From assembly GCA_019925105.1 (NCBI GenBank), contig JAHGAU010000013.1, forward strand, positions 682,001-746,000: a stretch of DNA of 64,000 nucleotides, given 5' to 3'. The position numbers and the translations under genes were made by a program. This stretch comes from Niebla homalea. Taxonomy: Eukaryota > Ascomycota > Lecanoromycetes > Lecanorales > Ramalinaceae. The stretch's first letter is position 1; every line of letters starts with the position of its first letter. Positions 1,190 to 21,136 of this stretch are shown in pieces. Below the pieces are notes generated by a model. The model was not told the DNA's origin and searched no databases. It saw only the letters and a list, made by a program, of their open reading frames with translations.

Positions 1190-1329
1190 GAGCCTTGCAA
1201 TACACTTGACTCGGTGGGAAGATGGAAAGATGGAAAGAGCCTTGCAATACACTTGACTCGGTGGGAAGAGGGGAAGAGCCTTGCAATACACTTGACTCGA
1301 GGGGAAGAGCCTTGCAATACACTTGACTC
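1190..1329 (-). repeat. Array of four 23-bp palindromes, sense to the 1122 gene
   Basis: Copies are at 1190-1212, 1237-1259, 1276-1298 and 1307-1329. Read on the minus strand each is arm GAGTC, core AAGTGTATTGCAA, arm GGCTC. As RNA the arms pair with one G:U wobble. The spacers are CT-rich in the sense direction. The array lies between the ATG at 1122 and the shared promoter region, so it is probably in the 5' leader. Confidence 0.85.
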
Positions 1330-1343
1330 GGTGGGCAATGTGG

Positions 1344-1626
1344 AGAATGTGGATGTTTGCTTGAATCTCTCATTCGTCAATCTTGGTGATGGTGGAGAGA
1401 TCAAAACACGGTGGGTCACGAGAGGTACACCTATGTGGGTGGTTGTGGTGAATGAAGGCTTGGCACACTAGCGTGGTAATGTGACCCTCTAGCGTGGCAA
1501 TACACAACCCACAAATCCGCTTCCAGTCTCTTTATACAAGATCAACATATCCAGGTTTTCTACCTCTGCCCTTTACAAGTCTGCCAAGACGGCGTGCTGC
1601 AAGCCCCTACCATTTCACTGCCCACC
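1344..1626. promoter_or_regulatory. Shared bidirectional promoter region
   Basis: This 283-bp segment separates two divergent palindrome arrays and must hold the promoters of the minus-strand gene starting at 1122 and of paralogue A starting at 1830. A TATA-like CTTTATACAAGATCAAC lies near 1529-1545 in plus sense; its ACAAGATCAAC part recurs near 4038 upstream of the 4514 gene. No other motif was recognised. Confidence 0.4.
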
Positions 1627-1770
1627 GAGTCAAGTGTATTGCAAGGCTCTTCCCCTCGAGTCAAGTGTATTGCAAGGCTCTTCTCCTCTTCCCCTCTTCC
1701 CCCCGAGTCAAGTGTATTGCAAGGCTCTCTCACTCAATCATCCCCTCGAGTCAAGTGTATTGCAAGGCTC
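1627..1770 (+). repeat. Array of four 23-bp palindromes, sense to paralogue A
   Basis: Copies are at 1627-1649, 1658-1680, 1705-1727 and 1748-1770, identical in arms (GAGTC/GGCTC) and core to the 1190-1329 array but in the opposite orientation, so both arrays are sense to their own gene. Spacers such as TTCCCCTCTTCCCC are pyrimidine-rich. I see no ATG between about 1600 and the start codon at 1830. Confidence 0.85.
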
Positions 1771-1829
1771 TTTCCATCTTTCCATATTTCCATCTTCCCC
1801 TACTTGCAGCACGCTTGTCGCTTTCCACA

Positions 1830-3799
1830 ATGGCAGCCCAAGCACCACCCCAGCGCTCCATTCCAGCCAAGAGAGTGCCACCAAAAAAGGCAGACAATAA
1901 GGAACGCCTCATCTACCACCAACGACAAGACGATGCCCACCTAGCGATTTCCCGAGATGGATCCTACTTGGCGATTGCAGACTCGTGGATGGACGACGAC
2001 AAGATCACGGCCAGGCGGAATCGGAATCCGGTGCCACCCCTTAACGTGCAGGGGCTCTGGATTGACAGGTCAGTCTCAATTGCCACAAGCACCCCTCTTC
2101 TAATCTCAGCTGCCATAAACACCCGCTTTCTAATCCTATCTACTATCCCCTTTTATCTTAGTGACTCTTGATTGTCCACAAAGCTTAATCGAGGCCGGAA
2201 TTATCGCTAATACTATAATAGGTCCGGCATCAGGGTTGAACAGCATGGTAATCGTTATGACAATAATACTCCCGAAGCTGCAAAGCGCATCTGGACGACC
2301 CTGTTTCGGATGGCATATGTTAAGTCTATCTGCGTCGGACAATTTGAAGTTAACGTACCGTCTAAGGAGAGCCCGGAACCTGGTGAGATTCAAACCCCGA
2401 TCGTTGTACCGATGATCGAACTCTCCTTCCGATATGAAGTTCGGCCCCTGGGTAAAGGTAAGTCTCGTTTCAATTCCTATGCCCTCTATTACATAAAGTA
2501 GCATTAATTCTATGATCTCAAGGTACTACCGTGGATAGTGTCATGGATGATGTAGAAGAGTCGGCAACGGCTCAGGCTACATCCGGATCTACCATGGATC
2601 TTAACGAGGGTGTATCAGGCGCAACCGATCCCTCGATGGGTCAACCAGAGCTTTCCTTCAACCTGCCTGTGGATCAAGCCGATCCTTCCTTTGACCTTCC
2701 TGCGGATGAAGACGATCCTTCCTTTGACGTGCCTCCTCTCGGTCAAGCCGACCTTCCTGCGGGTCAGCATACTAATGACGGTGAGATGGAGCCTTTCCAG
2801 TCCGAGGACCCTCAACAATTTCCCCTCGCCAATGCATTCAACGACATGCCTGATTCGGGCTTCGAGGTTCGCCTCCAATTCCGCAATCCTCGTCCTAATC
2901 GAGGGGTGTCTTGGTGGTTCTGGCCAGCGGCCTTTGGTCTGCTCGCTGGTCTTGATACTTACCAAGTCACCACCAGCAAGAATCAAAATGACGCTCAGCT
3001 CAGAATGCAACTTGGACAATGGATCCAGGCTTGGGGCAGCACATACCCCCATGCCACTTTCGCACGCCAATCCCAGCAGGCAGACGGTATCGAAAGGTGG
3101 GCAATGACCAGCCATCCCACGTGAGTCAAACCCCATTACAAGTCGAACATCATCACAGTCTAGCTCAAGGCTGACCAATTTACAGGGACTTTCCAAATCT
3201 GATCGGTTGGAACGACCCCTCCGCCCTCTCCAACGCCCCCCCTGCGCCCCCAAAGACTCCGAAACGATCCTTGGAGGAGAGCAATGCCCCATTCAAGTAC
3301 GTATCTGTTGTGCTTTGCGAAGAATTCCTACATACAGCAAATAAGTTTCCAATCTGTTCGACGATTTGATTATGGTTTGCAACAAATTTTCCTATGTAGC
3401 AAATGAGTTTCAAACCTGTTCAATGAATCGATCATAATATGCCAGATACTGACTTCGTCTGTTTGTGATGTGCGTAGTGAGGCTGACTGGCGGGGTTTGC
3501 GCCTGGAGAAGAGGGCAGAGATCCAGTCACGCGAGCGCAAGATTGTGCAGGAGGAGAGGGAGAGTCGGGCTGAGATGGAGGATCTCACTGAGCGACTTCA
3601 GAAGGCCTCTGTCCGACAACGAGAGACCGCCAGACACCGTGAGGCTCTCGAAGACGACAAGAGGCTCTACCAGGAGCAAGATGACGTCCTCATTGCTGGC
3701 AGCGCCGAAGGTGTGAAAGAGGGGCCGAGTGAGAAAAGGCAGAGGCAGGGCGACGAGGTGGAGGAGCAGGTGAAGGATGTGGAAATGTCGGGGTCTTGA
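1830..3799 (+). CDS. Paralogue A of a lineage-specific family (501 aa)
   Basis: Function unknown. Exons by splice signal and phase: 1830-2068, 2222-2457, 2523-3120, 3186-3296 and 3478-3799, giving 501 aa. The protein is clearly paralogous to the minus-strand gene 13933-15934. Shared blocks include RDGS..A/P and an NV.GLWID motif at the end of exon 1, RVEQ plus IWTTLF in exon 2, a RPLG motif, and a long block in exon 3 with PLA.AF.D.P and WPAA.GLLAGL. Between the RPLG and WPAA blocks lies an acidic stretch with repeated SFDLP/DDPSFDVP units; B has a DDN tract there instead. The C-terminus is a charged, probably coiled-coil segment (about residues 400-475). No catalytic motif, signal peptide or membrane helix is evident. 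Start chosen at the first ATG after the ATG-free leader; an open frame continues upstream through the array but has no ATG. Confidence 0.75.
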
Positions 3800-4006
3800 T
3801 TTGTCATTTTCTTTTTTCATGGCGGCAGTCTACTGTCAAGGGTTTGTTCTTTTGCTTCTATGTTATGTTCTCTCTCACATGCTATTAAGAAATCATTGCA
3901 ATAAAGAATAGATCTTGCCATGCATCTATGGAGAAGCTTCTGAGTAGTATCTCTTAAGGTATATCCGAATAGTTTGTAGGTCGAACACTCTGGGGTTGGG
4001 CGTAAC

Positions 4007-4050
4007 GGCTTGGCATCTTTTCTCACTACCCACACAAGATCAACTCTTCA
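4007..4050 (+). promoter_or_regulatory. Promoter block shared with the orphan array at 19.9 kb
   Basis: GGCTTGGCATCTTTTCTCAC followed by TACCCACACAAGATCAA lies just upstream of the nine-copy palindrome array of the 4514 gene. The reverse complement of 19923-19954 matches it over about 32 bp with one or two differences, again directly upstream of a palindrome array. A shared position before two arrays suggests a core promoter or transcription-start module; that role is inferred. Confidence 0.5.
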
Positions 4051-4103
4051 ATTTTGTATTGCAAGACACCCTCATCACCTTCCCCTCATCACCCCTCCCC
4101 CCC

Positions 4104-4420
4104 GAGCTGAGTGTATTGCAAAGCTCCTCGAGTCAAGTGTATTGCAAGGCTCCCCCTCACCCTCGAGTCAAGTGTATTGCAAGGCTCTTCCCCCCTTCCC
4201 CTCGAGTCAAGTGTATTGCAAGGCTCCCTCATCACCTTCCCCTCGAGTCAAGTGTATTGCAAGGCTCCCTCATCACCTTCCCCTCGAGTCAAGTGTATTG
4301 CAAGGCTCCCTCATCACCTTCTCAGAGCTGAGTGTATTGCAAAGCTCCCACATCACCTTCTCAGAGCTGAGTGTATTGCAAAGCTCCCACCTACCTAGAG
4401 CCGAACGTATTGTAAAGCTC
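4104..4420 (+). repeat. Array of nine 23-bp palindromes upstream of the 4514 gene
   Basis: Copies at 4104, 4130, 4165, 4204, 4245, 4286, 4325, 4364 and 4398, each 23 bp. Five have arms GAGTC/GGCTC; three (4104, 4325, 4364) have GAGCT/AGCTC, so both arms changed together and pairing became perfect Watson-Crick. The last copy (4398-4420) is degenerate. Several spacers repeat CCCTCATCACCTTCCCCTC, giving a higher-order unit of about 41 bp. No ATG is seen from about 3935 to the start codon at 4514. Confidence 0.88.
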
Positions 4421-4513
4421 CGTCTATCGAGCTTGATACTCCGCTTCACGCCTTCTTCTCAACGTTGACACTCCACTTCACGCCTCACCATCTCCGGGAC
4501 ATCTTTGCTCGAC

Positions 4514-6481
4514 ATGGCAAACCACCCAAACGTTCAGGTGCTAGTCCCCGCGACTCAGGACGCTACCGCAGGTCCAGTCGATAGCATTGCCTCTTCTCAG
4601 CGCGCCATCGATGAAGAATTGGCTAATAGTGGAGGGATGCGCCCCCCACAGTGAGTTTGAATACTTGTCTGGATGTTTTGTCGCCGTTTCACATATGGAT
4701 CAGAACCCTATTGAGGCTGGGCTACCTATTATTCTGATATAACAGGCACGTTTGCTAATATTATTACCCCTTTTTGCCAGGTTCAAAACGACGGGTGAAG
4801 CTTTTAAGATCCCGCAGGCCGTTAAACCACAAGAGCCCGACGTGCTCCAATCACCAGCTAAACCAAGCGTCAGTCCAATTCTCAAGCATTCTACTTGCCC
4901 CAGACTCTGATACTCACACTCTACCTCGCCTAGGTCTCAACGAGGCCGGAGCCAGATGATCCGCTGCAAGACAAACACCAGGTGAGAATGTTGGAGGCCT
5001 TCGGCTCCTCGGACTATGTAGGCCTACAGGCGTGCATTTACCGGATGGCGTGCCATCGTTGTGACGCTCGTGATCCCCCTCCGAAGTCCTACCAGCTGAT
5101 CAAGGAAGATTACGATACTGGACGATGTCACGTTTACCAGCTGCTCTATCTCCTGCCGCCTGCAGTCATCCGGTCCGTCATCCAGAATACTCTGCCGTAC
5201 GACATCCTCCGCGATCAAGACATGAAGACCTTTTTCGACGAACGCATGGAGGTAAAGGTCCCCACTCCTTGTGCTGGAGTGTACGTGCAGTGGATCTGCC
5301 ACGATTATTCACCGTTGCTCGACTCCACCATCTCCGAGAAGGACGGGAGATTCTTCAATTCTACTCAAATCCAAAGGATGCTCGAATTGGTGGAGTGCTA
5401 TGTGGACAACTCGGCGGCCTCCAGGGCTACCAACGACAGCGTGGACAGGGCATTCAACCCGATGTGGCAGTCAAGCGGAACCGGAGACCGCGCCGTAACC
5501 ATCGCGAGCGACACCGCTCTGAAGATCCGAGATTGGATCAAGGTCGTCAGACGCCAATACTGCGCGAACATTGACCCTCAGAAAGCCCATGATGCCTTCA
5601 TGCGAACGCCGATGGAGGTCGGGTGGGCTCAAGACGTACCCAAGCGTATCGAGCAGCACAGGTATGCCGCCGCCACCCCGACGTTGCTGTACCTTGTGCA
5701 AGCAATCAAGAAGAAGGAACAATGGCAACGAGCCAGCAAGCATCACGCACTCTTGTTCCCCGTCCCATATGCAGCCGACTCGCCCTTGTATGCGGTTGCA
5801 GAGATCCTAGGATCGATACTCTGCTCCTCCTATCATTTTTATGGCGGCTTCAATGCCCATCTCGCTGGAGGCTCCAACACGGTCACCCTTCAAGACGACA
5901 ACGATGTCTGGTACACCAGTGAATTGTTCTTTTCTCAACGTCTGAGGTGGGGAGGCCATATTAACACCGAGCTCCTTGCCATCAAGAAGAACTTTAGTAT
6001 CCTGGCCAATGCTCGAAAATTGCTGCTTCTCCGGAAGGAGCATCAGGAGGCGAAAGCTGCCTATGATGCCAAGGTCGGGGAACGAGACCGATTAGTGGAG
6101 CGCATGGTCGAGCTCAACCAGACCTGCCGCCGTCTGAAGGATGCGGCTCATGAGAGAGACCGGGCGGAAGCTCAATTGGCCTCCCAAGCTGGCCGCGAAC
6201 CGGAGGAAAAGATTCCTGGCATCCCAAATTCAGTCCTGGAAGAAGCCGACAGGCTGGAAGAAAAGAAGGAAATTTGGGACCTAGTCAATTCTTGCCGCGA
6301 ATCCAAGGATGAGACGTTCGAAGACGACATGATAAACCAGCTCGCCGACGGATATGATAGTGACCTTCTTGCCGAGGCCATGCAAGAGTATGACGAGGCA
6401 GATCAACGGCGCTTACAGAGGAGAGAGGAGCTCTGGAATAGTCGCAGAGAGGGGAAGGGGGGTCAAGAGACTCGTGAATAG
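4514..6481 (+). CDS. Unknown protein with C-terminal coiled coil (590 aa)
   Basis: I do not recognise this family. Exons 4514-4650, 4781-4868 and 4934-6481 are joined by two GT-AG introns in phase and give 590 aa. The first 90 residues are Pro/Ser/Gln-rich and disordered. Residues about 100-430 form a globular region rich in Tyr, Trp and Cys (a YRMACHRCDARDPP segment near residue 100, then QWICHDYSPLLDS). Residues about 430-500 are heptad-like and charged, typical of a coiled coil, followed by an acidic tail. No signal peptide or membrane segment. The gene follows the nine-copy palindrome array and lies in the same block as paralogues A and B, which also end in coiled coils, so a shared complex is conceivable but unproven. 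The acceptor at 4933 is the least certain boundary. Confidence 0.65.
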
Positions 6482-7211
6482 TGAGTGCAAGTAGAGAAGG
6501 GCTGGTGAGGGAGAGGGGGGGAGGAGAAGGGGAGAAGAGACTGCAGCGCAGCGTACACCAGTCTGAGTTCTTTCATAATTCTTCACCACTGCTCGAGCTT
6601 GTTTTAGAATGTCTGACTAGTACTGTACATAATACATTACCACCATGTCTTATTGCAGCAAACGTGTGTAATGCTCCTACTGATCCGTTCTGGCAGGATT
6701 TTGATTTCATATCAAGGCTGACTCACTAGTTATTCATCCCAAAATCTCCCTTATATACCCGTGAATGCCACCTTTTACTCGCAGTCCCCGCGTGACTGAA
6801 CAAAGCCGGTGTAAATGCTTGTATATATTACGAATTGCCCAAGATTCACCGGTTGTCTATATCACAATGCATGCAACCTCTGGACATTGACTCATATAAT
6901 TCATCTTGCCGAATTGCCCAAGATTCACCAGTTGTCTACATTAAAATCCATGCAACCTCTGGACGTTAGTTCATATAATTCATCTTGCTGAATCTTGTCG
7001 TATCTCACAGTTACAGAGATTGTACTTGGTGCATGGCATCGCGACCTGAATAGAGCAAGAATGGTAAATACATATGCTAGACTCGATTGGTCTGCACGTG
7101 ATTTTCAACCTCTGGCCTTGGAAGAGATTTTCCTGGCTTCTCCTGAATCATCAAGAAGCATTTGATTGAGTAAATGACGAGCTCAATCATCTTACCACTG
7201 TAGCACCCACC
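6482..7211. other. Intergenic region with a 79-bp tandem duplication
   Basis: No coding potential is seen. Two 79-bp copies lie at 6832-6910 and 6911-6989, both starting GAATTGCCCAAGATTCACC and ending near TCATATAATTCATCTTGC, with about 10 differences. The rest is AT-rich 3' flank of the 4514 gene and the upstream region of the 7478 gene. Confidence 0.7.
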
Positions 7212-7351
7212 GAGTCAAGTGTATTGCAAGGCTCTTCCCCTCGAGTCAAGTGTATTGCAAGACTCTTCCCCTCTTCCCCTCGAGTCAAGTGTATTGCAAG
7301 GCTCTTCCCATCTTTCCACCTTCCCACCGAGTCAAGTGTATTGCAAGGCTC
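7212..7351 (+). repeat. Array of four 23-bp palindromes upstream of the 7478 gene
   Basis: Copies at 7212-7234, 7243-7265, 7282-7304 and 7329-7351. Three have arms GAGTC/GGCTC; the second has GAGTC/GACTC, a perfect Watson-Crick pair. Spacers are CT-rich. A tract of CTTCTTTCTTGTCATTCTTC repeats follows at 7380-7465 before the ATG at 7478. I see no ATG between about 7180 and 7478. Confidence 0.85.
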
Positions 7352-7477
7352 TCACATTGTGCTCATAGTCAAGCTTCTCGTCATTCTTCCTCTTCTTTCT
7401 TGTCATTCTTCGTCATTCTTCCTCTTCTTTCTTGTCATTCTTCGTCATTCTTCATCTTCTCTCTCCATTTTGTAACG

Positions 7478-10209
7478 ATGCCTCTTCAAAGTAGACAGGC
7501 TAGCAGGGACAATATCAAGAAACATATGAGACAGCTCCGTCAGCGCAGTCAATCATTCGCCGAGAAACAAAATTCTTTCACAGCTGCGGCCGAGACGTCC
7601 TACCCTGGTGTTCCTGCCAATGAACTCCTGACCCGTATTGAAAATGATGCAAATCAGAGTGGGTACCATGAGCAGTACAGGAACTACTTTCTGGGGAAGA
7701 CGAACGAAGTCGCCAATTCGATCCTGATCCATGAGGACCGCATTGAACGCGTGGAAGCAAAGGCAAGCCGACTTATTTCATTTTTCTGTCATTTCCTCTT
7801 GCCAGAGCTCTCCATACTTCCCTTTGCCATGCCAGAGCTCTCCATACTTTCCCTTACCATGTCATGTTGCAATGTCTGAGCATGACAAATTACCAGCCAC
7901 CCTGCTACGCATTTTCGCAACGTAGACATCCATATTGATTGCATCGATGTATCAAATTTATATGTATTCCATTCTAGGTAGCAAGCAAGGAGATGCAGTT
8001 GGAGCTCGCCAAAAACGAGAACAAGGCCCGCGCCGTTGTCGACAATATTCTTGAGCTGGCAGACAAGAACAAGGCCATCGACCAAGCCCTTTTCAAGCAC
8101 TACCACCAAGAGTCTCCCGAACTTGCGATGCAGCCAGACGTCGTAAAGCAATGGCAAGTGGATATTGCCAACATCCAAGCCAGTATCGACGAATGCAAGC
8201 CTCAGATCGTCGACACCATCCTGAACAAGGTCAATGAGAATATCAAGAAAGATTGTCCTTCTTTCGAAGAGAAATACATAAAGCCCTTGAACACCATCAT
8301 AGAAGCGTTGCAAAAAACTATTGTTAGGCTGAATCACGACTTGGACGAAGCGGAATGCAAAGCTTCAACGCTGGAAGAAGCCCAAGACAAAGTTCGGATC
8401 GAACACATCGATGCTCTGGCTGCTAAGGATAGTGAGATAACTCGAGTTCTTCAGGGACAAAGTGAAGCGGCCCAATCTGTTACCCAAACCAGCCTAGCCG
8501 AAGCACTTAAAAAGCTGCAAGCGTCTAACGAACAAGCATTGGACGCTCATCAAAGAACGATGATTGAGCAATTTGAGAAGCTTACCGGAACTTTACCTGA
8601 TATGGTTAAGGATCTCGTTACATCTAGCCAGGTAGCCCCCTCGACCCAGCAACCCGTCGCCACTCATGTACCTGCTGCTCCATTTACCACAACCGTACAA
8701 TCACTGAAAAGGCCAAGTGCCATCCTCGACCATCAGCCCATGTCGGGTGCCGCCTCGCCCATTACTGCTCAACCCTCGCCGCCCCCGAGAAAGACCCAGC
8801 GAAAGCGGCTTAATAGGGAAATACCGAGTGAACGGCCAGCCCAGCGCAATCGGACATCCCTGTCGCACTCGATATCACAGATCTCCAGTGCCAATCGAGC
8901 TGTCCTACCTCATCACTTCTTGGATACAACGGAGATTCTCGGTGATGAGGCGGAGACTCAAGCAAGCAGAAGTCAGGCACTAGGCGAGCAAAGTGAAGGG
9001 CCGGTGGGAGCGTACGTTGAAGTATGTTGATCCGAAACTTAACTTCATTTCAAAGTTGTCCAATATCAACGTCTAACGTATCGTAGGAAGTAAATCTGCT
9101 CCTCGAACAAGTGGGGCTAACGTTGAATGAGGGGGACTTGGCTGAGGTCAGGGGCATTTGGCGTTGGAAGTCCTTTGCTGGAGACTTTGCGCAGTCGGAC
9201 AAGGAGCACGTGATGAAGAATCTGGCAACGTGTGTCCAGAAGAATGATCAAAAATGTCAGGCAGTCAAGGTACTAGCGAGTGCAGCCCGGTCTCTTGATC
9301 CTGTTTGCCTGGTCGAGGCCTGGAAGAAGCAGAAAGGCCGGTTCCCAATGGTCCTTTCAGACCTCGACCAGCGTGAGGCTGTAGCATGGGATGATTCGGA
9401 GAGGTGTGATAGATGTCGGAAGTATGACAATCCCTGTATCAGGGTCAAGAACGTGGAACGAGATGGGACGGATTGGCTGGAGATGACCAAAAGGTCAAGT
9501 ACCACTTTCGACCATCGATCCGTATCGGGCGCCGCTCTGCCCATTGCTTCTCCACCCCCACCGCCCCCGAGTGACTCCCAGGGAAAGCAACTTAGTGAAG
9601 AAACAATGAGTGAACGGCAAGCCCGGCGCAACCGGATATCCCGTTCTGATGAGATAGAAGAAGGTAAGCAATGTGCCGCGCCTAACCATCAATCCAATGA
9701 GGTATGTCTAAACAAAATCAACGGACATTCAAAAGACACGATCGTACTACAGGCCAATATTACTGACGTGACCATGAACACAGGAGATTGATGAGCTCAT
9801 GAAGGAGTTGCCGCCTGATCTGTGGGCAAATGAGTCAGAGTTGCCCCGTGTTCAAAAATTATGGGGCCTGATGTACTTTGACCCCGTAATCACGCATGAG
9901 GATAGGAAGTACCTGATGACGCATCTGGTCACAGCCATCAGGAGGAAGGTGAAAAAGGGCAATCCGAACCAGGCGGAAGTCAAGCTGATGCATGCCGCGA
10001 ACGCTCCTGACCCTGTTTGTTTGATTGAGGACTGGAGGAAGCAGAAGGGGACGTTTCCAGTGGTGGCGGGGCCGAACGAGTCCGAGGTTATTGATGGTTC
10101 TGGGAGGTGTAACTTGTGCGCTGCTGCAAAGGATCGCCCATGTTTTAGGGTCAGGCGGATTAAGGGCAGCGATTCCCTGTATCTTACAAAGCGTAGTGTT
10201 ACAGACTAG
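7478..10209 (+). CDS. Coiled-coil protein with two tandem cysteine modules (789 aa)
   Basis: Function unknown. Exons are 7478-7762, 7978-9021, 9087-9701 and 9784-10209 (789 aa). The first intron is best read as GC-AG (AAG|GCAAGC, acceptor CTAG at 7977); it keeps phase 0. Residues about 80-290 are a long charged coiled coil. The C-terminal half is an internal duplication: a Pro-rich linker with a DH..(V/M)SGAA core and an SER.A.RNR motif, followed by a module of about 130 residues, then linker and module again. Each module carries DPVCL(V/I)E.W(R/K)KQKG.FP and ends in C-x2-C-x6-C (first Cys near residues 549 and 756), then RV and TKRS. The spaced cysteines could bind a metal or DNA; this is inference. 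A four-copy palindrome array lies upstream. Confidence 0.72.
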
Positions 10210-10700
10210 TTGCACACTGACGGGTTCGGGAGCAGAGACATTTCCCCGTAGGACCGGAGCGTGGGTGGGTTAAGAGGATTTACTGTTACTAACCCCTACT
10301 TTTGACCTTTATATCAGAGTATCCATCGGTGTTTCAACGATGGACAATGTTGTTTTCCAAATTTGGTTAGCGGAGAGCACGCTAGACATTGAGTTTTCAG
10401 TCACATGACCAGGAGTGGAGGGTGTGAGAAATGATTCCGTGTTTCAACGGTGGACAGGATAATTATTCCCAATCTGGTTAGCGTAAATTTCTCATTTGTG
10501 GTGCAGATATCTTGTCGAGCTGGCGGTGGGCAAAAATAGGGGTAATGCCATGTACCACTATGGACAAGAGAACCGCACCATAACAACCGCGCACCAAAAA
10601 TCAATCCCGCCCCCAAAAAGAAACGATCCGCTCTGATGTCTAGTACAGCTACATTGTAGATTTCAGATAGTTGCTCTTTTGTACATATTGAATTCTATTC
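10210..10700. other. Intergenic, convergent 3' flanks with an imperfect duplication
   Basis: This is the space between two convergent genes. A segment near 10329-10380 (TGTTTCAACGATGGACA ... TTTGGTTAGCG) recurs imperfectly near 10438-10490 (TGTTTCAACGGTGGACA ... TCTGGTTAGCG), a period of about 110 bp. No coding sequence or RNA gene recognised. Confidence 0.5.
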
Positions 10701-12200
10701 TTACACACTGCAGGCTCTCGGCCGCAGCTGCGGAGCAGCTTCGAACTCCCCAACGTCCTCGGAGTCCTCCAGCTGAGCTGGCCGGTCCTGTCGAGCCTTG
10801 TCGCGGATGTTCTCCCATCTGCCGATGTTCTTTGCGTTGCTAGTCAAGTCGACGACGCTTAGACTGTCCGAGAAGCCAACCGGTTCGGCGTCCCATTCAT
10901 CGACTTTGACATCCTCCACCACCTCGGGCGAATCAAGGTCATCGCGACTGTCCAGCCAGGATTCGATAAACCCAATCATTGCAGGCTTGAGCACAGATCG
11001 ATAGCCACCCTCGGGATGCTCGCCGTCACGGTAACTCAACATGGTAACCTGGCTATCACCATAGTATGACTCCTGGCCCCAACCGTCGTCGAAAGCTCCC
11101 AGCTCTTCAGCCTCCTTGCGGCGTTGATCAAGGTCGTTCTCCTTGTCGATGAGGTTTGAAGTGAGCCACATGCCTTGCTTCAATATCTTTCGGTCGAAGA
11201 CTGACTGTGAACAACCCGCGGCTCCATTCTTGAGGGCTTCCTCGAAGCCGCGCAGTTGCATTGCTGAGTAGTACTCTTTGCGATTGAATTCCCTCAACAC
11301 CCCTTCATACGCAACCCCAGCCGCCCAGTAATTTTCCCGAGCTTCCCGAATGGCTTTTTCTTCATCGCTGATCTCGGGCTCTTGGGGCAAGTCATCGGCA
11401 GGAACGTCGTCTTCTTGGAGATCCTGTTCATTCGGTTGGGCTGGTGAGTCCGAGGCTCCTCCATCTGAAACAGACTCCTCGTATTCTGGCACTTGCTGCA
11501 GAGCAGCAGCCTTCATCGCGTCCTGGAGTGTACGTTGGATGACGATCCTGTAATGCTTGATGGTATGTTCAAGTGCATTGATGTGGTCGTGCAGAAGCTC
11601 CACTTTCTTCTCTAGCCTCTCGACGTCCGCACTCGTTTTGGTCGTCTCCTCCGACTCCTCGGTTTGCTGGCTTCCCTTGGAGGATGTATTCCGTTTGTCG
11701 TCGGTCCCGATTCGAGCTTTCAGATCCTCAAGCCTTCTCTGCACTCGTTTCAAGGTCTCCTCTTTAGTCGAGCGCATCTGATCAGCTTTGGCGAGGTCTA
11801 TCTGCGCATAAGCCATTTCTTCTGTGATGAACATGGCAAAACACGGTTTGCCGCGTTCGTCTTGCTTTACAAAAATCCTAGCGTCCTCTTCCTCTGTCCA
11901 GTCTGCTTCTTGGATTGAGGTTCCTTCATGGCTCGGAGATCTTTGGAGCTCATCTTCGTTGTTTTCGGATTGAATCTCGGATTGAATCCCTGCGTCAACA
12001 CAAAAGGAATCATTGGAATGATTGTTCTCGACCGTCAAAAGTCGGACGTCATCATCGTAGGGGTTGGCGGAACATGATAATGTCCGCTGTGGGTGTCTCA
12101 GGGGGGTTTGGTGACCCAGACGGAAACGTGCAATGTCGCGGACAGTATTGAAGGCCTTCTCGTATACGATTCCAAGCAGTCTTTTGATAGGGACCGGCAT
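10701..12200 (-). CDS. Acidic coiled-coil protein of unknown function (499 aa)
   Basis: A single uninterrupted frame from ATG 12200 to the stop at 10701 encodes 499 aa. The N-terminal 30 residues are basic and amphipathic (RLLGIVYEKAFNTVRDIARF), which could be a targeting segment. Residues about 120-240 are a charged coiled coil, followed by an acidic Ser/Asp/Glu/Pro-rich stretch, a region with conserved-looking Trp and Tyr (residues about 300-400), and a C-terminal part containing DEWDAEPVGFSDSLSVVD. Large acidic proteins of this general composition, with a W-D-x-E and DS(I/L)SVVD-like tail, are frequent among unclassified predicted proteins of Dothideomycetes; I offer that resemblance from memory, not from a search. 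It has no palindrome array upstream. Confidence 0.6.
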   Translation of the reverse strand: MPVPIKRLLGIVYEKAFNTVRDIARFRLGHQTPLRHPQRTLSCSANPYDDDVRLLTVENNHSNDSFCVDAGIQSEIQSENNEDELQRSPSHEGTSIQEADWTEEEDARIFVKQDERGKPCFAMFITEEMAYAQIDLAKADQMRSTKEETLKRVQRRLEDLKARIGTDDKRNTSSKGSQQTEESEETTKTSADVERLEKKVELLHDHINALEHTIKHYRIVIQRTLQDAMKAAALQQVPEYEESVSDGGASDSPAQPNEQDLQEDDVPADDLPQEPEISDEEKAIREARENYWAAGVAYEGVLREFNRKEYYSAMQLRGFEEALKNGAAGCSQSVFDRKILKQGMWLTSNLIDKENDLDQRRKEAEELGAFDDGWGQESYYGDSQVTMLSYRDGEHPEGGYRSVLKPAMIGFIESWLDSRDDLDSPEVVEDVKVDEWDAEPVGFSDSLSVVDLTSNAKNIGRWENIRDKARQDRPAQLEDSEDVGEFEAAPQLRPRACSV

Positions 12201-12676
12201 ATTTCCTACACTTGCTGGACACCGATCCAAAGTAAAATGGAGAGAATTGAGTAGAAAATGCAGGAAGAGTGTGACTAAATCAAGGGTTCAAGGAAGGTAT
12301 AGATAACAAAGTCCGCTTCTTGCTCGATACTTTTCCTTGGGCAAATATCGAGATCCTTTGTTCACTGATTACACAGTATGCTTTGTGTCCAGCAGGTGGT
12401 AGGGTCATGAAAGGGCCTTTGTTCTTTGCTCAACAAGGACCTCCAAGGTGCCAGGGGAAGGTCCATCATTGTTCACATATTGCTCTCTCTGTCCCTTTGA
12501 ATGTGACATTGCAACCTAACAATGGTGTATCTTCCTTTTGTCAAGGAGGCACGACACTGTCACTGGAGATCCTCTCACTCTTATTACTTTGAAATGGTCT
12601 ACGATATCTCCTTGGTCCAGTCTCACAGGCACCCTGAACTTGACCAGAATACAATATCATATCTCTATCCACTCAA

Positions 12677-13507
12677 ATGACGAATTTGAAGACGAGCAAA
12701 GGCAAAAGCAGCCAACCCGCACCAAGCAAACCTGATGCCAGCAAACCCTTTACCAGTAATGCCTACCGAGCCCTAGCTGCTGAAGCGGATGAGCTCGACA
12801 TTTCCAAGCTGAGCTTTACTGACCAGCAGCATCATAAGCCAAAGGATTTTGCGAGCTACAATGCTCCTGAGAACTCGGGGGTATCCCGAGCTGCAACGAC
12901 GACCAATTGGCGAAAGCCAGACCCCCGGCCACCGCGAGGGTTTCCGCCGGCCTACAATCCTCAAAAGGAGTATCAAGGGCTTGATCCTGCGAGAGCAACT
13001 GTAATGACACGCGAGACTTGCGTAGTTGGTAAGATCTTTCGGGCTGCCGTCCATGAGCCGGACATGTCTGACATGCCAGGCTGGGGAGGACAGATGGATG
13101 ATTCGAAAACGTGTGTGACTCATGCCGGGGCCGTCTACTCGAAGGTCCGATGGCTCATCATCGTAGCCGTCTATGAGAACCACTACATGGCGATCCCTCT
13201 ATACACACACAATGGAAAGGGCTTGCAAAACAAGTCTGAAGAAGCGAAGCGCGAGTACTCCTCAATTCGTGACCTCCGCCTGAGACGCGGTGGATTTGAG
13301 AATCTGTCTATGAAGAATGTGGTCTTGGACGCAAAGATGTTCGCCAACACAACACTGCTTTCCTCGAAGACAGTCGCACACTGGACCGCACCTCTCCAGA
13401 GGAAGTTTGGCTTGTATGTGGAGGAGCAAGGCATACTCGCACCAAAGTCAGCTGAAGGTATTACCGAGGCCTGGTTGACGAAGATGAAACCCATGAAGGC
13501 CAAATGA
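12677..13507 (+). CDS. DUF6590-like protein (276 aa)
   Basis: A single exon from ATG 12677 gives 276 aa. After a disordered Ser/Pro/Lys-rich head (residues 1-110) comes a compact domain of about 150 residues: VVGKIFRAAVHEP, then VRWLIIVAVYENHYMAIPLYTHNGKGL, a ...SIRDLRLRRGGFENL segment, and SSKTVAHWTAPLQRKFGLYVEEQG near the end. This order of a (F)xxGKVF start, a hydrophobic VVV core, an IPIxTYxGxG-like loop and a late ...KVxxxGxL element matches what I know of DUF6590, a domain of unknown function common in filamentous ascomycetes. No enzymatic role is known to me. Part of this gene (about 13108-13175) has a degenerate copy at 18283-18403. Confidence 0.6.
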   Translation: MTNLKTSKGKSSQPAPSKPDASKPFTSNAYRALAAEADELDISKLSFTDQQHHKPKDFASYNAPENSGVSRAATTTNWRKPDPRPPRGFPPAYNPQKEYQGLDPARATVMTRETCVVGKIFRAAVHEPDMSDMPGWGGQMDDSKTCVTHAGAVYSKVRWLIIVAVYENHYMAIPLYTHNGKGLQNKSEEAKREYSSIRDLRLRRGGFENLSMKNVVLDAKMFANTTLLSSKTVAHWTAPLQRKFGLYVEEQGILAPKSAEGITEAWLTKMKPMKAK

Positions 13508-13932
13508 AAGAAGGATGATGGCACTTGTGAAGATATAGCATGATAGAGGACCGAGTATAGGAACAGAGGCGGGCTGGGGCTCATTTGACTAGATATGATA
13601 GCATGGCTCAATGTGGTCAAGTCCTGGCAGCGACATCAGTCACCATGTACATTCGATCCACCTAGTCTAGGTCTAGCAATCTCAAGCTGCCACTCTGAAT
13701 GTCAAATGAAATCTATCCCAAGTCTCGAGCCTAAGGTCTTGCATCCTAGACTTGTCCCTGAGCAGCTTGTAGGACAGAATGCTTGGGTACACAAAGCAAT
13801 AGAATCCCCGGCTCCTTTACTACGCACCATGACCTGTTGATAGCTTAGCTGAACAATCTCTCGCAATTCTTCGTACTACATTAAATGATGTTTAGGATTA
13901 GATATGGATCACTTGATGCTAAACTCTCTGCG
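13508..13932. other. Convergent intergenic region, nothing recognised
   Basis: This stretch holds the 3' flanks of the DUF6590-like gene and of paralogue B. No conserved reading frame, repeat or RNA gene is seen. Confidence 0.5.
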
Positions 13933-15934
13933 TTATGTCTTGCGGTCTTTCCTAGCCCGCTCCTTCTCCTCGCGCTTTGCAATACGCGCCAAGGTGTTCT
14001 CACGCCTACGCCTGGCTTCGTCCAGTAATCTGGTAAGCTCTTCTATACTCCGATCGTCCTCCCTTATTTGTTGGTAAAGAGTAATCAGGTCCTCCTCCTC
14101 CTCCTCCTCCTCCTCCTCGGGACTCTTGGGGGGGTTGTCGGCGGCAGGCTGTGAACTGGTGAGATCTGGGGTCCAACGAATCAGACCTAGTCCCCTTGAG
14201 TGGTTCTGCCATGCTGGGGGAAGGCTAGTGGGAGGCTGGAGAATGGTGGTAGGAGGCGGGAGACGGTGAGGTAGGGTGGTGATAGCGATTGAAGCTCTTT
14301 CGCTAGCGGCCATATCCTAATGAAAATGTGTGATTAGCATTGAGTTTCATGGCACAATGTAATATTAAGCTAGTACTGTATAAAGACAATATCTTAGTAC
14401 TTACCTTGGGACCCTTGGGCAAACGTGGATTGGCAACAGCGTCTGGATTGGCTCGCATTTGCCATCTGTTGGCGTCGAGCGGCCCTTGTCGAAGCATCTG
14501 AGTGAAGGTCGCATATGGGAACAGGTGGGCTCTACTCCCATAACGCTGGATCCAGGTGTCCAGGTCCCAGGTAAGCTGTTCCTTGGTGTGCTTGGCTTTT
14601 GATGCTACCCAGTAACTCTCGAGACCAGCGAGCAAACCACAAGCTGCAGGCCATAGCCACGTGGACGTTGAACGTTTAACAGGCCTGTAAAGCCTGATGC
14701 GGACCTGGAAAGTGTTTGGAAGATCATCGAAGGCTTTGGCAAGGGGATAGTCCTGGGGCTGGATGGGCTGAGTGGGAGCTGGGTCAGCCATGTCTTCACA
14801 TTCCTTGATCCAATCGACATCTTCACAGTATTCTTCACCCCAATCGGGTTCTTCAAAGTAGGCTACAGACAGGTGTTGATTAGTATGTACTACTATCTTC
14901 TCAACTTCTTATAGGGGTCAGGATGCTTACACGGACTTTCCACGATAGGGCAGTCTTGATCTGGCCCCGATGATGCCTCAGGAGCTTGCTCTGTAGACCC
15001 CTCTTGAATTGGGGTTGGGTGACTAAACTCCTTCGGCAGTTCTGCCTCCTCTTCCTTCGCCTCGCCCATCTCCTTCACCTTGTCGTCCTTGCCGTCGTTG
15101 TCGTCGTTGTCGTCGTTGTCGTCGTTGTCGTCGTTGTCGTCGTTGTCGTCGTTGTCGTCGTTGTCGTCGTTGTCGTCGTTGTCGTCGTTGTCGTCGTTGT
15201 CATCGTTGTCGTCGTTGTCGTCGTTGTCGTCGTTGTCGTCGTTGTCGTCGTTGTCGTCGTTGTCGTCGTTGTCGTCGTTGTCGTCGTTGTCGTCGTTGTC
15301 GTCGTTGTCGTCGTTGTCGTCGTTGTCGTCGTTGTCGTCGTTGTCGTCGGAAGGTTCGGAGTTGGGAATGTTGCTCTCACCAAGAGGTCGACCCCTATAT
15401 GTGAACCTGATGTCGATGAGCGGCGACATCTTTCCTTTATATGCCGGAAATTGGGACTCTGCAAGGCGAATGAGCGAGACATGCTGCCTTTCGAACAGTG
15501 TTGTCCAAATGCGTTCAATGTCGGTCAGAAGTCTCTTCTTGCCGGCGTAGTTGCCGCCATGCTGTTCGACTCTGACGCCTATGCTCAGATGTTAAGCAAT
15601 GCAGGAACGAAGCATAATGACGGTGATAGCACTCACCCGAGCTAGTGAAGAGGTTAGTTGATCAACACAACGAGTAGTATTTTGACAAAGGGAAATATAA
15701 TTGTGGTACTCACGCGTCGATCCACAAACCCTCTACATTGAAGGGCACGGCATGGCCCCCCGCGTTCTGGTTTGGCCATGATTGAGGGATAGGAACCCAG
15801 CTTCCATCTCGAAAGATGGAGAGCTCGGCATGTGACGCCCTTACATGGGTAACTTCCAACTCCCAGCTATTGGTGGTGACAGTGGGATGTCGCTTGGCTG
15901 GAATAGCACTACTGGATGTCGATTGTCCGGCCAT
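13933..15934 (-). CDS. Paralogue B of a lineage-specific family, with DDN tract (571 aa)
   Basis: Function unknown; paralogue of 1830-3799. Predicted exons: 15934-15714, a 5-nt micro-exon 15651-15647, 15578-14931, 14862-14405 and 14316-13933, together 571 aa. The micro-exon restores the phase and the local SG.RVEQ sequence seen in paralogue A, which has a single intron there. Shared blocks: FRDGS, NVEGLWID, IWTTLF, RGRPLG, YPLAKAFDDLP and WPAACGLLAGL. After the RPLG block B carries about 29 DDN repeats (15350-15094), replacing the SFDLP repeats of A. An acidic YFEEPDWGEEYCEDVDW stretch follows, and the last exon holds a Glu run and a basic coiled coil ending in KDRKT. Six palindromes precede it at 15992-16262, sense to the gene. 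Confidence 0.72.
15094..15350 (-). repeat. Coding 9-bp minisatellite encoding Asp-Asp-Asn, about 29 copies
   Basis: On the plus strand the unit is GTCGTCGTT repeated about 29 times with a single variant (CATCGTTGTC near 15200). In the frame of paralogue B it encodes DDN. Near identity across the tract shows recent expansion or constant slippage. The array is open in all frames of both strands, so the other frames (poly-Val, LSS, TTT) are artefacts. Confidence 0.9.
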
Positions 15935-15991
15935 AGTTGTCGCTCCTTGTCAAGCGTGCAGCAGGTTGGGGGGGGAGAGGGAGGTTTTAGA

Positions 15992-16262
15992 AAGCCTTGC
16001 TTGATGCTTGGCTCGAAGAGAGGGAGGTGGGTTTGGGAAAGCCTTGCTTGATGCTTAGCTCGAAGAGAGAGGGGGGAGAGGGAGGTGAAAGCCTTGCTTG
16101 ATGCTTAGCTCGAAGAGAGAGAGAAGGAGGTGGAAAGGGGAAAGCCTTGCTTGATGCTTAGCTCGAAGAGAGAGGGGGGGAGAGGGAGGTGAAAGCCTTG
16201 CTTGATGCTTGGCTCGAAGAGAGGGAGGTGGAAAGGGGAAAGCCTTGCTTGATGCTTGACTC
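15992..16262 (-). repeat. Array of six 23-bp palindromes, second subtype
   Basis: Plus-strand copies start at 15992, 16039, 16089, 16142, 16193 and 16240; each is arm AAGCC, a 13-nt core TTGCTTGATGCTT, and arm GGCTC, AGCTC or GACTC. Length and the AGCCTTGC start match the first subtype, while the second half of the core differs. Spacers are purine-rich on plus (GAGAGAGGGGGGAGAG), so pyrimidine-rich in the sense of paralogue B. No CAT (antisense ATG) occurs between 15935 and about 16400. Confidence 0.85.
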
Positions 16263-16515
16263 GAAGATGTTTGGTGTTTTGAGGGCAACTGCAGCACGCT
16301 GATTCGGAGGGCTTCGATGGCGAACAAGAGATATCCAGAAGTACTTGCAGGGAGAAAGAAAAAGCCGATCTTGGTTGTGGGTTTTTTTGACTACGCTAGA
16401 GTGCCAAGCATCCGTATCGTACCTGATATCACAAAATATATCTGTGAATTGTTTTGATTCCCTATCATCACCACAATTGAACAAGGAAAGGAGAATGACA
16501 GCCACCGATATCTTA

Positions 16516-16710
16516 GAGTCAAGCATCAAGCAAGGCTTTCAAAAAGCTACCTCTCTCTTTTGGAGCCAACCATTAAGCAAAGCTTTCCAAAATCTACCTT
16601 TCTCTCTCTTTCTCTCTCTTCTCCTCTCTCTCTCTAAGCCGTACACTCCGCAGGTTTACCAACATTACCTTCTCTCTCTCTCTCTCAGAGTCAAGCGTTG
16701 AGCAAGGTTT
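16516..16710 (+). repeat. Three degenerate palindromes and CT tract in plus orientation
   Basis: Copies at 16516-16538 (GAGTC/GGCTT), 16563-16585 (GAGCC/AGCTT) and 16688-16710 (GAGTC/GGTTT) are separated by CTCTCT tracts. They look like a decayed plus-sense leader array, but no intact gene follows; only a possible cold-shock-like remnant is found near 17.1-17.4 kb. Confidence 0.65.
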
Positions 16711-17090
16711 TCTTTACTTTTCTCTCTCTTTATCCTCGTTACCTGTCTCTCCTTCTACCTTATCACCAACATCTCCTTTCATTCAACCACGTTTGGGATG
16801 AATTCAAAGATATGAAACATTAATTGAATGGGAAACTTACGATTTTGGCGGGACCCTACCACGCCCTCATTGTAATTGTTTAGGTTCGTCAACGAGTGTG
16901 CCCAATAAGATTCAGTAAAACTCAGCGCTTACTCCTCTTCTTGCTTACTTATCAAGCTTCAGCAGAACGATACTCTCACAATCAACGAACCAAACATACC
17001 CGAGGGCCAAGGATTTATAACGAATTAATAATGCAGGCGGAAAGAACCCCTCTCGAATGGAATGATAAAGCTGTACCCGTTAGTGGGTTG

Positions 17091-17440
17091 CTACTCCGTA
17101 GGATCGAAGTAACTCTCGACTTTGCTACAATGGACTCCGGTAGTAACGCGACCCACACGAGCAGGATCTTCTAGGCGGATGTCTTTTGTGAGAGGGCCTT
17201 TTGCTCCTTCCTCGCACTTGAAGGAGACGTCCATGCCTTTTCCCAAAGCGATACCGTTATTTTCCTTATCGAAGACCATGGCTTCTTGTCCGAGCTAGAA
17301 GACCCGGACCAGAATGGGGACATCGAGCCCCACACCAAAGTCTCTTTCATCGTCGCCCCTGCTCGCAAAGGCGTCCAAGCCGTCGCAGTCAAGATTGCAG
17401 ATCCCGGATGCGATTTTGGACAGCTTGTTTCAATTCGACC
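17091..17440. pseudogene. Two opposed cold-shock-like gene fragments (tentative)
   Basis: On the minus strand 17279-17091 encodes a 62-residue fragment with ALGKGMDVSFKCEEGAKGP, resembling the second half of a cold-shock (CSD) fold. On the plus strand about 17255-17420 reads HGFLSELEDPDQNGD and then KVSFIVAPARKGVQAVAVKI, again CSD-like, including a GF element. Each lacks the rest of the domain (the FGFI RNA-binding strands are poor or absent) and they point in opposite directions. They may be remnants of small CSD genes. The similarity is weak and judged by eye. Confidence 0.25.
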
Positions 17441-18120
17441 TTGTCCGTATCCACACGGGTGCTAAGGTCATATATCATCTCATTCTTGAAACGATGGTTT
17501 GGTAGACTTTTTTGTTCGCAATACAATGGACTTGGTGATTGGTTTCATGAGATTGTCAACATTGCTTTGATAGATGTCTGGGCTCCTTGAATAACGCTGG
17601 GAATGGATTCTTGCCTGGAGTGTCCAGGATCAGTAATCACGTGATGCGTCTCGGCAGAGTGATGCATGGGGGTATTCCGCGGTTGTCTTGGCAGTCTCCG
17701 CACTGAAGACCCTGTCGCATAAAGGCCTACCAAACAGCCTTTTGTTAACGGTAATACAGGTGCATCGGTGTATAGGGTACTTTGAGTATACGGTTATCAA
17801 ACGGCCCTTTGGATGGACACAAATACGGTCGTTGTCACGGTGTAATTAGACAAGCATTGTGGTAGACTCAATACAAGTGATTCGGCTTACTCCCCATTCC
17901 CCCTGCACCCTGCACCCATTTGCGCACGCATATTGCATCAAATTCAAAGTCTGAATTCCAGTTTCAGGATGCGAACCAACTGCTCTACTCAGAGGAGGTA
18001 GATAAGGCTATGGCAGCACTTCAAGGCATGCCGTCTGTAGAGATGAACCAAAGGAAACCCACAATGTAGCAGAAGTATCCAACTACAAACACAATGTCAG
18101 TGAGAAATTTGGATAGGGGA
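17441..18120. other. Non-coding stretch, nothing recognised
   Basis: Fragmented short frames only. No repeat of the block's families is seen until the single palindrome at 18121. Confidence 0.4.
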
Positions 18121-18143
18121 AAGCCTTGCTCAATGCTGGACTC
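18121..18143 (-). repeat. Isolated palindrome copy
   Basis: One 23-bp unit with arms AAGCC and GACTC and core TTGCTCAATGCTG stands alone, in the same orientation as the 18638-19890 array. It may be a remnant of a longer leader. Confidence 0.6.
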
Positions 18144-18282
18144 TGGGTACTATTGATGATGCCTTTGCAGATGAACATGCACGGTATGGGTTCTGCAGAT
18201 CACAATGCTGAAGAGAAAAGAAATCACGGCCCCGTCATCTCATCCTCCTCATTGCCCTTGGGCTTTTTCCCAGCCCGCTCCT

Positions 18283-18403
18283 TCTGCTAATGTGTGTGAC
18301 TCATGCCGGGGCCGTCTACTGGGAAGTCCGACGGCTCATCATCGTAGCCTTCAACACAAAGACCCAAATAGGTATACCTATGGTGACCCGCTGTATCTTC
18401 TAA
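18283..18403 (+). pseudogene. Remnant of the DUF6590-like gene
   Basis: From 18290 the plus strand repeats positions about 13108-13175 of the DUF6590-like gene nearly exactly: GTGTGACTCATGCCGGGGCC, then CCG/GGCTCATCATCGTAGCC with few differences. The translated fragment reads THAGAVYWEVRRLIIVAF and goes on with IGIPMV where the intact gene has MAIPLY, then stops after about 38 codons. No start codon or remaining domain is nearby. Protein-level similarity beyond the DNA match suggests a second, diverged copy that was truncated. Confidence 0.6.
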
Positions 18404-18637
18404 CCTTCAATTGCGCCCCAGAGCCTCCAGCATCTAAATAGACGGACCTGTATGCCAATCTTTCCAAATACATATAACATGCCCTGATTTCGACCTCCAA
18501 GCAGATGAAAGCCAGCCATCCCTGGGGAAGAGCAATGATATGTATGTTTCCATTGATAGTTATGCCTGACCACATTGAAGCATTGAGTAGCGACAAATAC
18601 TATCGTGGGAACCAGCAAAGATTGCTGATTGATCAAA

Positions 18638-19890
18638 AAGCCTTGCATTACACTCGGCTTTTGGAATGAGGAAGCCTTGCTTGATGCTCGGCTCTGAGTG
18701 GGAAAGAAAAGGGGAAAGCCTTGCTTGATGCTCGGCTCGAAGAATGAGGAAGGGGAAAGCCTTGCTTGATGCTCGGCTCGAAGAATGAAGAAGGGGAAAG
18801 CCTTGCTTGATGCTCGGCTCGAAGAATGAGGAAGGAGGAAGCCTTGCTTGATGCTCGGCTCGAAGAATAAGGAGGAGGAAGCCTTGCTTGATGCTCGGCT
18901 CAAAGAAAAGCTTTGCAATAAACGCAGCTTTGAGAAAGCGTTGCACTCAACCTTAAGAAAGCCTTGCATAGACTCGGCTTTGGAAAGGCATTGCACTCAG
19001 CTTTAAGAAAGCCTTGTAATACAAGCAGCTTTGTGAAGGAGGAAGCCTTGCTTGATGCTCAGCTCGAAGATTGAGGAAGGAGGAAGCCTTGCTTGATGCT
19101 CAGCTCGAAGATTGAGGAAGGAGGAAGCCTTGCTTGATGCTCGGCTCGAAGAATGAGGAGGAGGAAGCCTTGCTTGACGCTCGGCTCGAGGGGAAGCTGC
19201 GTCTATTGCAAAGCTTTGAGAAAGCTTTGCACTCAGCTTTAAGAAAGCCTTGCAATACACTCGGCTCGGGTGGGGAAAGCTTTGCAATAGACGCAGCTTT
19301 CAGAAAGCGTTGCACTCAGCTTCAACAAAGCCTTGCAATACACTCGGCTCCGGTAGGGGAAGCTTTGCAATAGACGCAGCTTTCAGAAAGCGTTGCACTC
19401 AGCTTTAACAAAGCCTTGCATAAACTCGGCTTTGGAAAGGCTTTGCACTCAGCTTTAAGAAAGCCTTGCAATACAAGCAGCTTTATGAACGAGAGGGAGG
19501 GAGCCTTGCAATACACTTGGCTTTGTGAGTGAAGGAGCCTTGCGATACACTTGGCTTTGTGTCGGAAAGAGCCTTGCGATATACTCGGCTTTGAGAAAGC
19601 TTTGCACTCAGCTTTAAGAAAGCCTTGCAATACAAGTAGCTTTATGAACGAGGGGGAGGGAGCCTTGCAATACACTTGGCTTTGTGAGTGAAGGAGCCTT
19701 GCAATACACTTGGCTTTGTGTGTGAAAGAGCCTTGCGATATACTCGGCTTTGAGAAAGCTTTGCAATAGACGCAGCTTTGAGAAAGGCTTGCAATAGACG
19801 CAGCTTTAAGGGAGCCCTGCAGTACACTGAGCCTGAGAAGGCTTTTGTGATACACGCGGCTCGGAGAAAGCTTTGCCATTACTCGCGGCT
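18638..19890 (-). repeat. Giant palindrome array, about 40 units
   Basis: Units follow one another with few gaps. Subtypes seen on plus: AAGCC...GGCTC with core TTGCTTGATGCTC (clustered 18670-18902 and 19041-19186); AAAGCT...AGCTTT with core TTGCAATAGACGC; AAAGCC...GGCTTT; GAGCC...GGCTTT with core TTGCAATACACTT; and a shorter AAAGCTTTGCACTCAGCTTT. One unit at about 19192-19215 is inverted. A four-unit higher-order repeat is visible at 19500-19790. On the minus strand the array reads as a leader fed by the promoter block at 19923-19954, but no intact coding sequence follows below 18638. Confidence 0.85.
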
Positions 19891-20879: not shown

Positions 20880-20949
20880 ATGGCTTGTGCAAGAGTATTC
20901 TCATGGCTTGCGCAAGAGTATTCTCATGGCTTGCGCAAGAGTATTCTCA
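20880..20949. repeat. 23-bp tandem repeat, three copies
   Basis: Units beginning ATGGCTTG(T/C)GCAAGAG recur at 20880, 20903 and 20926 with almost no difference. The sequence is unrelated to the palindrome family despite the same length. Confidence 0.85.
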
Positions 20950-21136
20950 AGGCGACGACAGCAGCTGCGAGACACACATTACGCAGAGAACTGTGACACA
21001 TTTTGCATACTAGATTCTGAGCCCCAATTTGAGCTAGATGAGTGCAGCTTTATAGCTAAATATGTATGCAGCTCTTGCACAGTCCCGTGCATCATTATGT
21101 GCTCTGCTATCGATCAATGACGACTTCAACTAGATG

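Follow-up and report, generated by a model that had tools for sequence, protein, structure and literature searches.

Why should a run of neighbouring, mostly unrelated genes each be preceded by a tandem array of the same short palindrome, and would such arrays be read as DNA or as RNA? The locus that raises this question lies in Niebla homalea, in a stretch of 64,000 nucleotides (C13:682001-746000; the window), which we analysed with the adjoining stretch L027 (C13:672001-682000) and against the whole genome (50.6 Mb, 52 contigs). The repeated unit is a 23-bp imperfect palindrome with two subtypes, T1 (GAGTC-N13-GGCTC) and T2 (GAG[CT][CT]AAGCATCAAGCAAGGCTT). A preliminary description of the window had placed arrays just upstream of five genes; all five are confirmed, with the nearest unit 57-126 bases before the ATG. 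The arrays at 16516-16710(+), C13:661970-662137 and C23:116450-116556 and the lone unit at 18121 go beyond that description. The arrays and units are as follows.

1190-1329, minus strand: array A, four T1 units, 67 bases to the ATG at 1122(-).
1627-1770, plus strand: array B, four T1 units, 59 bases to the ATG at 1830.
4104-4420, plus strand: array C, nine units (five T1, three GAGCT..AGCTC, one with an A8-T16 double change), 93 bases to the ATG at 4514.
7212-7351, plus strand: array D, four T1 units, one of them GAGTC/GACTC, 126 bases to the ATG at 7478.
15992-16262, minus strand: array E, six T2 units, 57 bases to the ATG at 15934(-).
16516-16710, plus strand: orphan array F, three units, two of them decayed, with no intact gene seen downstream.
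18121-18143, minus strand: lone T2-like unit.
18638-19834, minus strand: giant array G, 28 sense 23-mers, together with variants of shorter length and an inverted unit at 19194-19216.
C13:661970-662137: Nup159 array, four units.
C23:116450-116556: C23 array, three units, sense.

In each unit the arms occupy positions 1-5 and 19-23, the inner pairs are 8-16 and 9-15, and A17-A18 is nearly fixed. As in a promoter or leader minisatellite, tandem units stand between gene and upstream flank in five gene-linked arrays of 4-9 units, spaced 26-53 bp apart, and the copy number across the five genes forms a series of 4, 4, 4, 6 and 9. All 27 units of arrays A-E are 23 bp long and all 27 are sense to their gene. 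The earlier statement that nearly all units are 23 bp stands for the gene-linked arrays; the giant array carries five 20-mers on its sense strand as well, and 22-bp variants. The TTGCAA core ascribed to the units in general is present in one subtype only, and the common core is GCAA. A matrix trained on this same stretch of sequence gives the array units 18.5-33.1 bits, against a ceiling of 14.4 bits in shuffled sequence (five shuffles, 104-kb context). A weak 14.2-bit unit beyond the end of array G (19840-19862) was left out of the unit set, as were two non-array matches in real sequence, with 19.4 bits at 8343 (inside a gene) and 18.3 at 57391.

The arrays are real and local. Across the genome the T1 pattern, with up to three mismatches, has 23 matches and the T2 pattern 21, with no match to either reversed control, and a degenerate pattern with up to one mismatch has 76, against nine for the pattern read backwards. 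These 76 comprise 57 in the window, one in the Nup159 array, three in the C23 array, one each on C5 and C16, and 13 scattered single matches, which is about the control level; 58 of them fall within one 40-kb stretch, C13:661-702 kb. The C5 match sits in a piece that resembles the region of the 15934 gene, flank included (81% over 268 bp). No match to the exact T1 unit was present in the viral contigs searched, and no described fungal element of this kind appeared among the matches listed in the open-access literature.

The two outlying arrays differ in their setting. The C23 array belongs to a locus outside the definition of the pattern, and its last unit lies, in sense orientation, 86 bases before an ATG, at the end of a 193-nt leader without any other ATG. 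The open reading frame (ORF) behind it is short, at about 50 codons, and is possibly a relic; the array is 9 kb away from a match to the 4514 gene with internal stops (C23:125635-125853), possibly a decayed copy. The Nup159 array is flanked by divergent genes: it faces the start of a Nup159/214-like gene (PF16755, 9.3e-52) at a distance of 231 bases, and on its other flank a proteasome beta start (PF00227, 5.7e-35) is about 280 bases away.

Comparison of the arrays with one another shows how the arrangement may have arisen. Arrays A and D match at 97% across 148 bp, spacers included, although their genes are unrelated; a 37-bp upstream stretch is common to arrays G and C, and the 5' edge of arrays A, B and D is the same, CCCACCGAGTC. 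On these three grounds the arrays were probably copied as blocks, and orientation therefore rests on few independent events. The independent targets number five (the helicase, the 1830/15934 pair, 4514, 7478 and the C23 ORF), or six with Nup159, and by our own estimate all of them would be sense by chance in about 1 in 16 to 1 in 32 cases. The rule that orientation always follows the gene is upheld in arrays A-E and again on C23. The giant array has one inverted unit and no intact gene on its sense side, just relics of cluster genes. Array G is antisense to its nearest gene, a SNARE-like gene on the plus strand at about 20100 that we take to be Bet1-like; it gave no Pfam match and no PDB sequence match. 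A coding function of the giant array was considered and rejected: open sense frames exist, but the spacings between units are not multiples of three.

A single unit folds into an outer helix of 5 bp and an inner one of 2 bp, separated by a 2x2 internal loop and closed by a loop of 5 nt, and RNAfold returns the same structure for T1 and T2. The T1 sense strand folds at -4.4 kcal/mol (z -1.5) and its reverse complement at 0, while T2 folds on both strands, at -8.3 kcal/mol for sense (z -3.2) and -9.2 for the reverse complement. Over 33 distinct units (231 cells), 91.3% of cells are paired in sense versus 77.1% in antisense, and RNAalifold on the same units recovers the 5-bp arm helix in sense, without the inner pairs, and no consensus fold in antisense. 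These data suggest a strand-specific fold, as expected of a structured RNA, with T2 taken alone as the exception. Among transition-type non-Watson-Crick cells (64 units, seven pairs) G.U outnumbers A.C by 95 to 10, and the inner pair 8-16 is preserved by a double change, to A-U, in the array C unit at 4398. Broken pairs are found in 1 of 27 units in arrays A-E and in 19 of 43 elsewhere (Fisher P 0.00025, with units that are not independent); the gene-linked units with intact pairs are also recent copies of each other.

The linkers of the gene-linked arrays have a composition of their own. On the sense strand the 22 spacers of arrays A-E (391 nt) contain no G and 34 A, compared with an A:G ratio of 592:497 in pyrimidine-rich 20-mers elsewhere in the window; G is present in the spacers of array F (7 of 126 nt), array G (62 of 553, shortened units included) and the Nup159 array (2 of 76). 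The ATG-free stretch upstream of the five cluster starts measures 251, 351, 586, 304 and 477 nt, and 224 nt on C23, compared with 14-273 nt in 14 control ORFs, whose starts are unverified and come from the ORF list, and 125 nt at Nup159 (Mann-Whitney P 0.00075 for six starts, C23 included, versus 14 control starts). Shuffling of tokens gave P 0.023 (dinucleotide) and 0.002 (mononucleotide) for the scarcity of upstream ATGs, which arises because the linkers are G-free.

The explanation that we favour, and hold only tentatively, is a locally evolved, block-copied and orientation-locked array whose units are read on the sense strand as an RNA leader module. We prefer the sense strand because strand asymmetry, G-free linkers, position and sense orientation combine in its favour; the placement 57-126 bases ahead of five ATGs was repeated out of sample on C23. 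The 23-bp palindrome would have arisen at this 40-kb locus and grown in tandem along with its C/T-rich linkers, and complete array blocks would then have been copied ahead of neighbouring, mostly unrelated genes, always with one and the same strand of the array toward the gene. The array, or its 3' part, would be transcribed within the mRNA leader, where the sense-strand units may form small hairpins or pairing modules bound by a protein via their GCAA side, and the genes of the cluster could in this way share a copy-number-dependent control of translation or mRNA stability. A more specific version seems improbable to us, namely a cluster-specific RNA regulon in which leader hairpin arrays on G-free linkers are bound by a cluster-encoded protein, such as the UPF1-like helicase with its own array; that neighbouring genes share control in such a regulon through leader-block copying is improbable to the same degree.

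Several results weigh against the RNA leader module. The arms had been described as co-varying, and this as a sign of selection for pairing rather than for primary sequence. The arm states listed do exist, but they co-vary only weakly: in three tests of 500 shuffles each, 42, 14 and 52 shuffles scored at least as high as the real units, and double changes amount to 5 of 231 cells. The statistical check of arm covariation proposed in the preliminary description was not passed, and set against shuffles of its own the antisense alignment performs at least as well (25 of 500; 9 of 500 for changes on both sides). On the unit tree the wobble excess drops to 17 G.U versus 7 A.C changes, and the least-changing positions (at most one change) are 2, 3, 7, 15-18, 21 and 22. 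They include G15-C16-A17-A18; primary sequence therefore matters at least as much as pairing, and the claim of selection for pairing over sequence falls. The stability of T1 is ordinary at its z of -1.5, with 19 of 200 shuffles folding equally well. In the complete leaders the mean probability of the unit hairpin is 0.01, 0.11, 0.08 and 0.01 for arrays A-D and reaches 0.62 only in E, so that unit hairpins are out-competed in four of five full leaders. With random four-letter linkers the same units give 0.20, 0.09, 0.17, 0.16 and 0.40 (A-E); since the random linkers give higher values in A, C and D, the native ones do not help the units to fold there. One of the two C23 spacers contains G, and at the Nup159 array, which is set between a divergent gene pair, ATGs intervene before the start (nearest -125). 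Upstream, GAT, the permuted triplet, occurs hardly more often than ATG (2 versus 0), a control that rules out ATG avoidance as a separate sign of a leader. Finally, the median leader in Cryptococcus neoformans is 105 nt (PMC7049704), and on that figure transcription could begin at a point that leaves a large part of each array outside the leader.

The same arrangement might instead act as DNA. It is possible, if somewhat doubtful, that a transcription factor, dimeric or asymmetric, binds the units as clustered sites in the promoters of a gene cluster that is co-regulated and lineage-specific, and their orientation would then be locked, with the same degree of doubt, since the copied block would also hold a directional C/T-rich core promoter; a C/T-rich strand bias is characteristic of sequence close to fungal transcription starts. 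Such a cluster of sites accounts for the position and the constant spacing almost as well as the RNA module does. The arms form a dyad with a constant 13-bp spacing in the gene-linked arrays, the conserved GCAA suits a base-reading protein, and 4-9 sites within about 410 bp ahead of the ATG are the usual geometry of a promoter. The arms are symmetric, but A17-A18 is nearly fixed without matching T6-T7, and shorter variants occur in the giant array; a symmetric dimer leaves unexplained both this asymmetry and the difference in pairing between the strands (91% vs 77%), and by eye the 26-53 bp spacings of arrays A-E have no helical phasing.

Neutral local growth, in which a slippage-prone or hairpin-primed palindrome spread in a rearranging locus and took its place and orientation from a few copied ancestral blocks, we consider unlikely. 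It accommodates the near-identity of arrays A and D ahead of unrelated genes, the presence of the largest array among relics of cluster genes, the reduction of orientation to five or six independent targets, the native linkers that give the units no advantage in folding in three of the five leaders, and the other locus-confined tandem families close by (L027 1999-2736 and window 328-613). It sits less well with the G-free linkers in all five gene-linked arrays, with the repetition of the same arrangement on C23, and with the pairs kept in gene-linked units as against those elsewhere, though the former are also recent copies. We regard it as very improbable that the units are remnants of a foldback element or a miniature inverted-repeat transposable element (MITE), that is, 23-bp pieces inserted many times. 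There are copies on C5, C16 and C23; however, the matches are not dispersed through the genome as those of such an element would be, with 58 of 76 in 40 kb and the scattered 13 set against a control of nine. The C5 copy is segmental, because similarity to the exon and flank of the 15934 region travels along with it, and outside C13, C5 and C23 just one exact unit, standing alone, is found in 50.6 Mb. No element of greater length, with repeats at its ends, was seen around the arrays, although no systematic search was made. If the arrays are functional, the locus shows how unrelated neighbours are brought under one control by copying of leader or promoter blocks, and its natural copy-number series lends itself to dose tests. 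Should the arrays be neutral, the locus is a clear case of how orientation and arm matching in tandem repeats can mislead.

Several known systems resemble the arrays in part. The iron-responsive element is a leader hairpin bound by a protein, and a short hairpin of conserved sequence in the 5' leaders of several mRNAs would act likewise. The arrays differ from it in having many copies per leader and no match to any Rfam family at E <=1 (window 1-22000). Bacterial REP elements are short palindromes present in many copies between genes. The palindromic repeats of Volvox organelles (PMC2670323) are likewise many short palindromes between genes. The arrays here differ from both in that they are nuclear and tandem, hardly extend beyond a single locus and have a locked orientation. 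Variable tandem repeats in promoters (PMC3899988) share with the arrays the tandem units upstream of genes, a copy number that differs from gene to gene and a possible dose effect, whereas imperfect palindromes, the strand-specific fold, G-free gene-linked linkers and the sharing of units by several unrelated neighbours set the arrays apart. Structured RNA elements in fungal UTRs (PMC8216456) are similar in that RNA structure is proposed for untranslated regions of fungal mRNAs; those elements were found through covariation across species, whereas here the covariation is weak and the units are tandem and come from one genome.

The genes behind the arrays are the following.

1-1122, minus strand: 5' part of an SF1 helicase gene that continues left into L027 (AAA_12 7.4e-26 and AAA_11 5.7e-10; Pfam, L027 exons).
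1830-3799, plus strand: gene without assigned function, end placed by eye, paralog of the 15934 gene.
4514-6481, plus strand: the 4514 gene, of a family without Pfam match.
7478-10209, plus strand: the 7478 gene, in part coiled-coil-like and with a Cys-containing C-terminal domain that is duplicated; it matches no Pfam family above cut-off.
13933-15934, minus strand: gene without assigned function, extent judged by eye on the basis of the ORFs, paralog of the 1830 gene.

The preliminary description spoke of a co-located gene family. This is true of two of the five genes: the 1830 and 15934 products are 43% identical over 111 aa, and by this similarity the two are paralogs, while no relation among the other three, or of these to the pair, was found in the comparisons run. 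A homology between the N-terminus of the helicase, which is presumably UPF1/DNA2-like, and the 1830/15934 domain had been suspected by eye and found no support, with an hhalign probability of 1% (two-sequence profile). Above cut-off, Pfam recognized among the cluster proteins only the helicase AAA domains and DUF6590, the latter in gene 12677(+); this gene and 12200(-) lie among the array genes, and the unit-matrix scan found no array at either.

The 4514 protein family (main part 4988-6481; P0001-P0015) is about 500 aa long and has at least 15 homologs in public data, with 28-46% identity, among the best 7,994 candidates scored. It has no Pfam match, and PDB sequences yielded no relative at an E better than 0.12; for an AlphaFold model of the main exon (pLDDT 73, pTM 0.59, 16 sequences) no structural neighbour in the PDB reached E <=0.001, and the viral and prokaryote contigs searched contain no relative. 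The longest contig is 56,622 bases both for P0008, of the 4514 family, and for P0016, of the 15934 family, which suggests that these genes may be neighbours elsewhere too. For the C-terminal exon of the 7478 gene no public homolog was found. A helicase match with internal stops at C15:187787-188111 is possibly a decayed copy, and inside the 15934 gene thirty copies of a 9-bp repeat (15080-15349) encode a long Asp-Asp-Asn run.

Other tandem repeats lie close to the cluster. At L027 1999-2736, about 370 bp upstream of ORF L027:3104(+), there are some twenty 37-bp units whose ends form a palindrome (CAGTCA...TGACTG) and which contain TTGCAA inside; 20 of the 23 genome matches to their pattern are in that array, and the other three are lone matches with three mismatches. 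What appears by eye to be an intron of the helicase gene holds a 31-bp tandem array of different sequence (328-613, minus strand), with all seven genome matches there, and its unit folds on the gene strand at -7.0 kcal/mol (z -2.2). The 32-bp units at L027 415-671, whose ends are palindromic by eye (AGCTAT...ATAGC), lie 3' rather than 5' of a gene, and a 23-bp tandem repeat with CTTGCGCAAG is found downstream of the SNARE-like gene, at 20880-20953.

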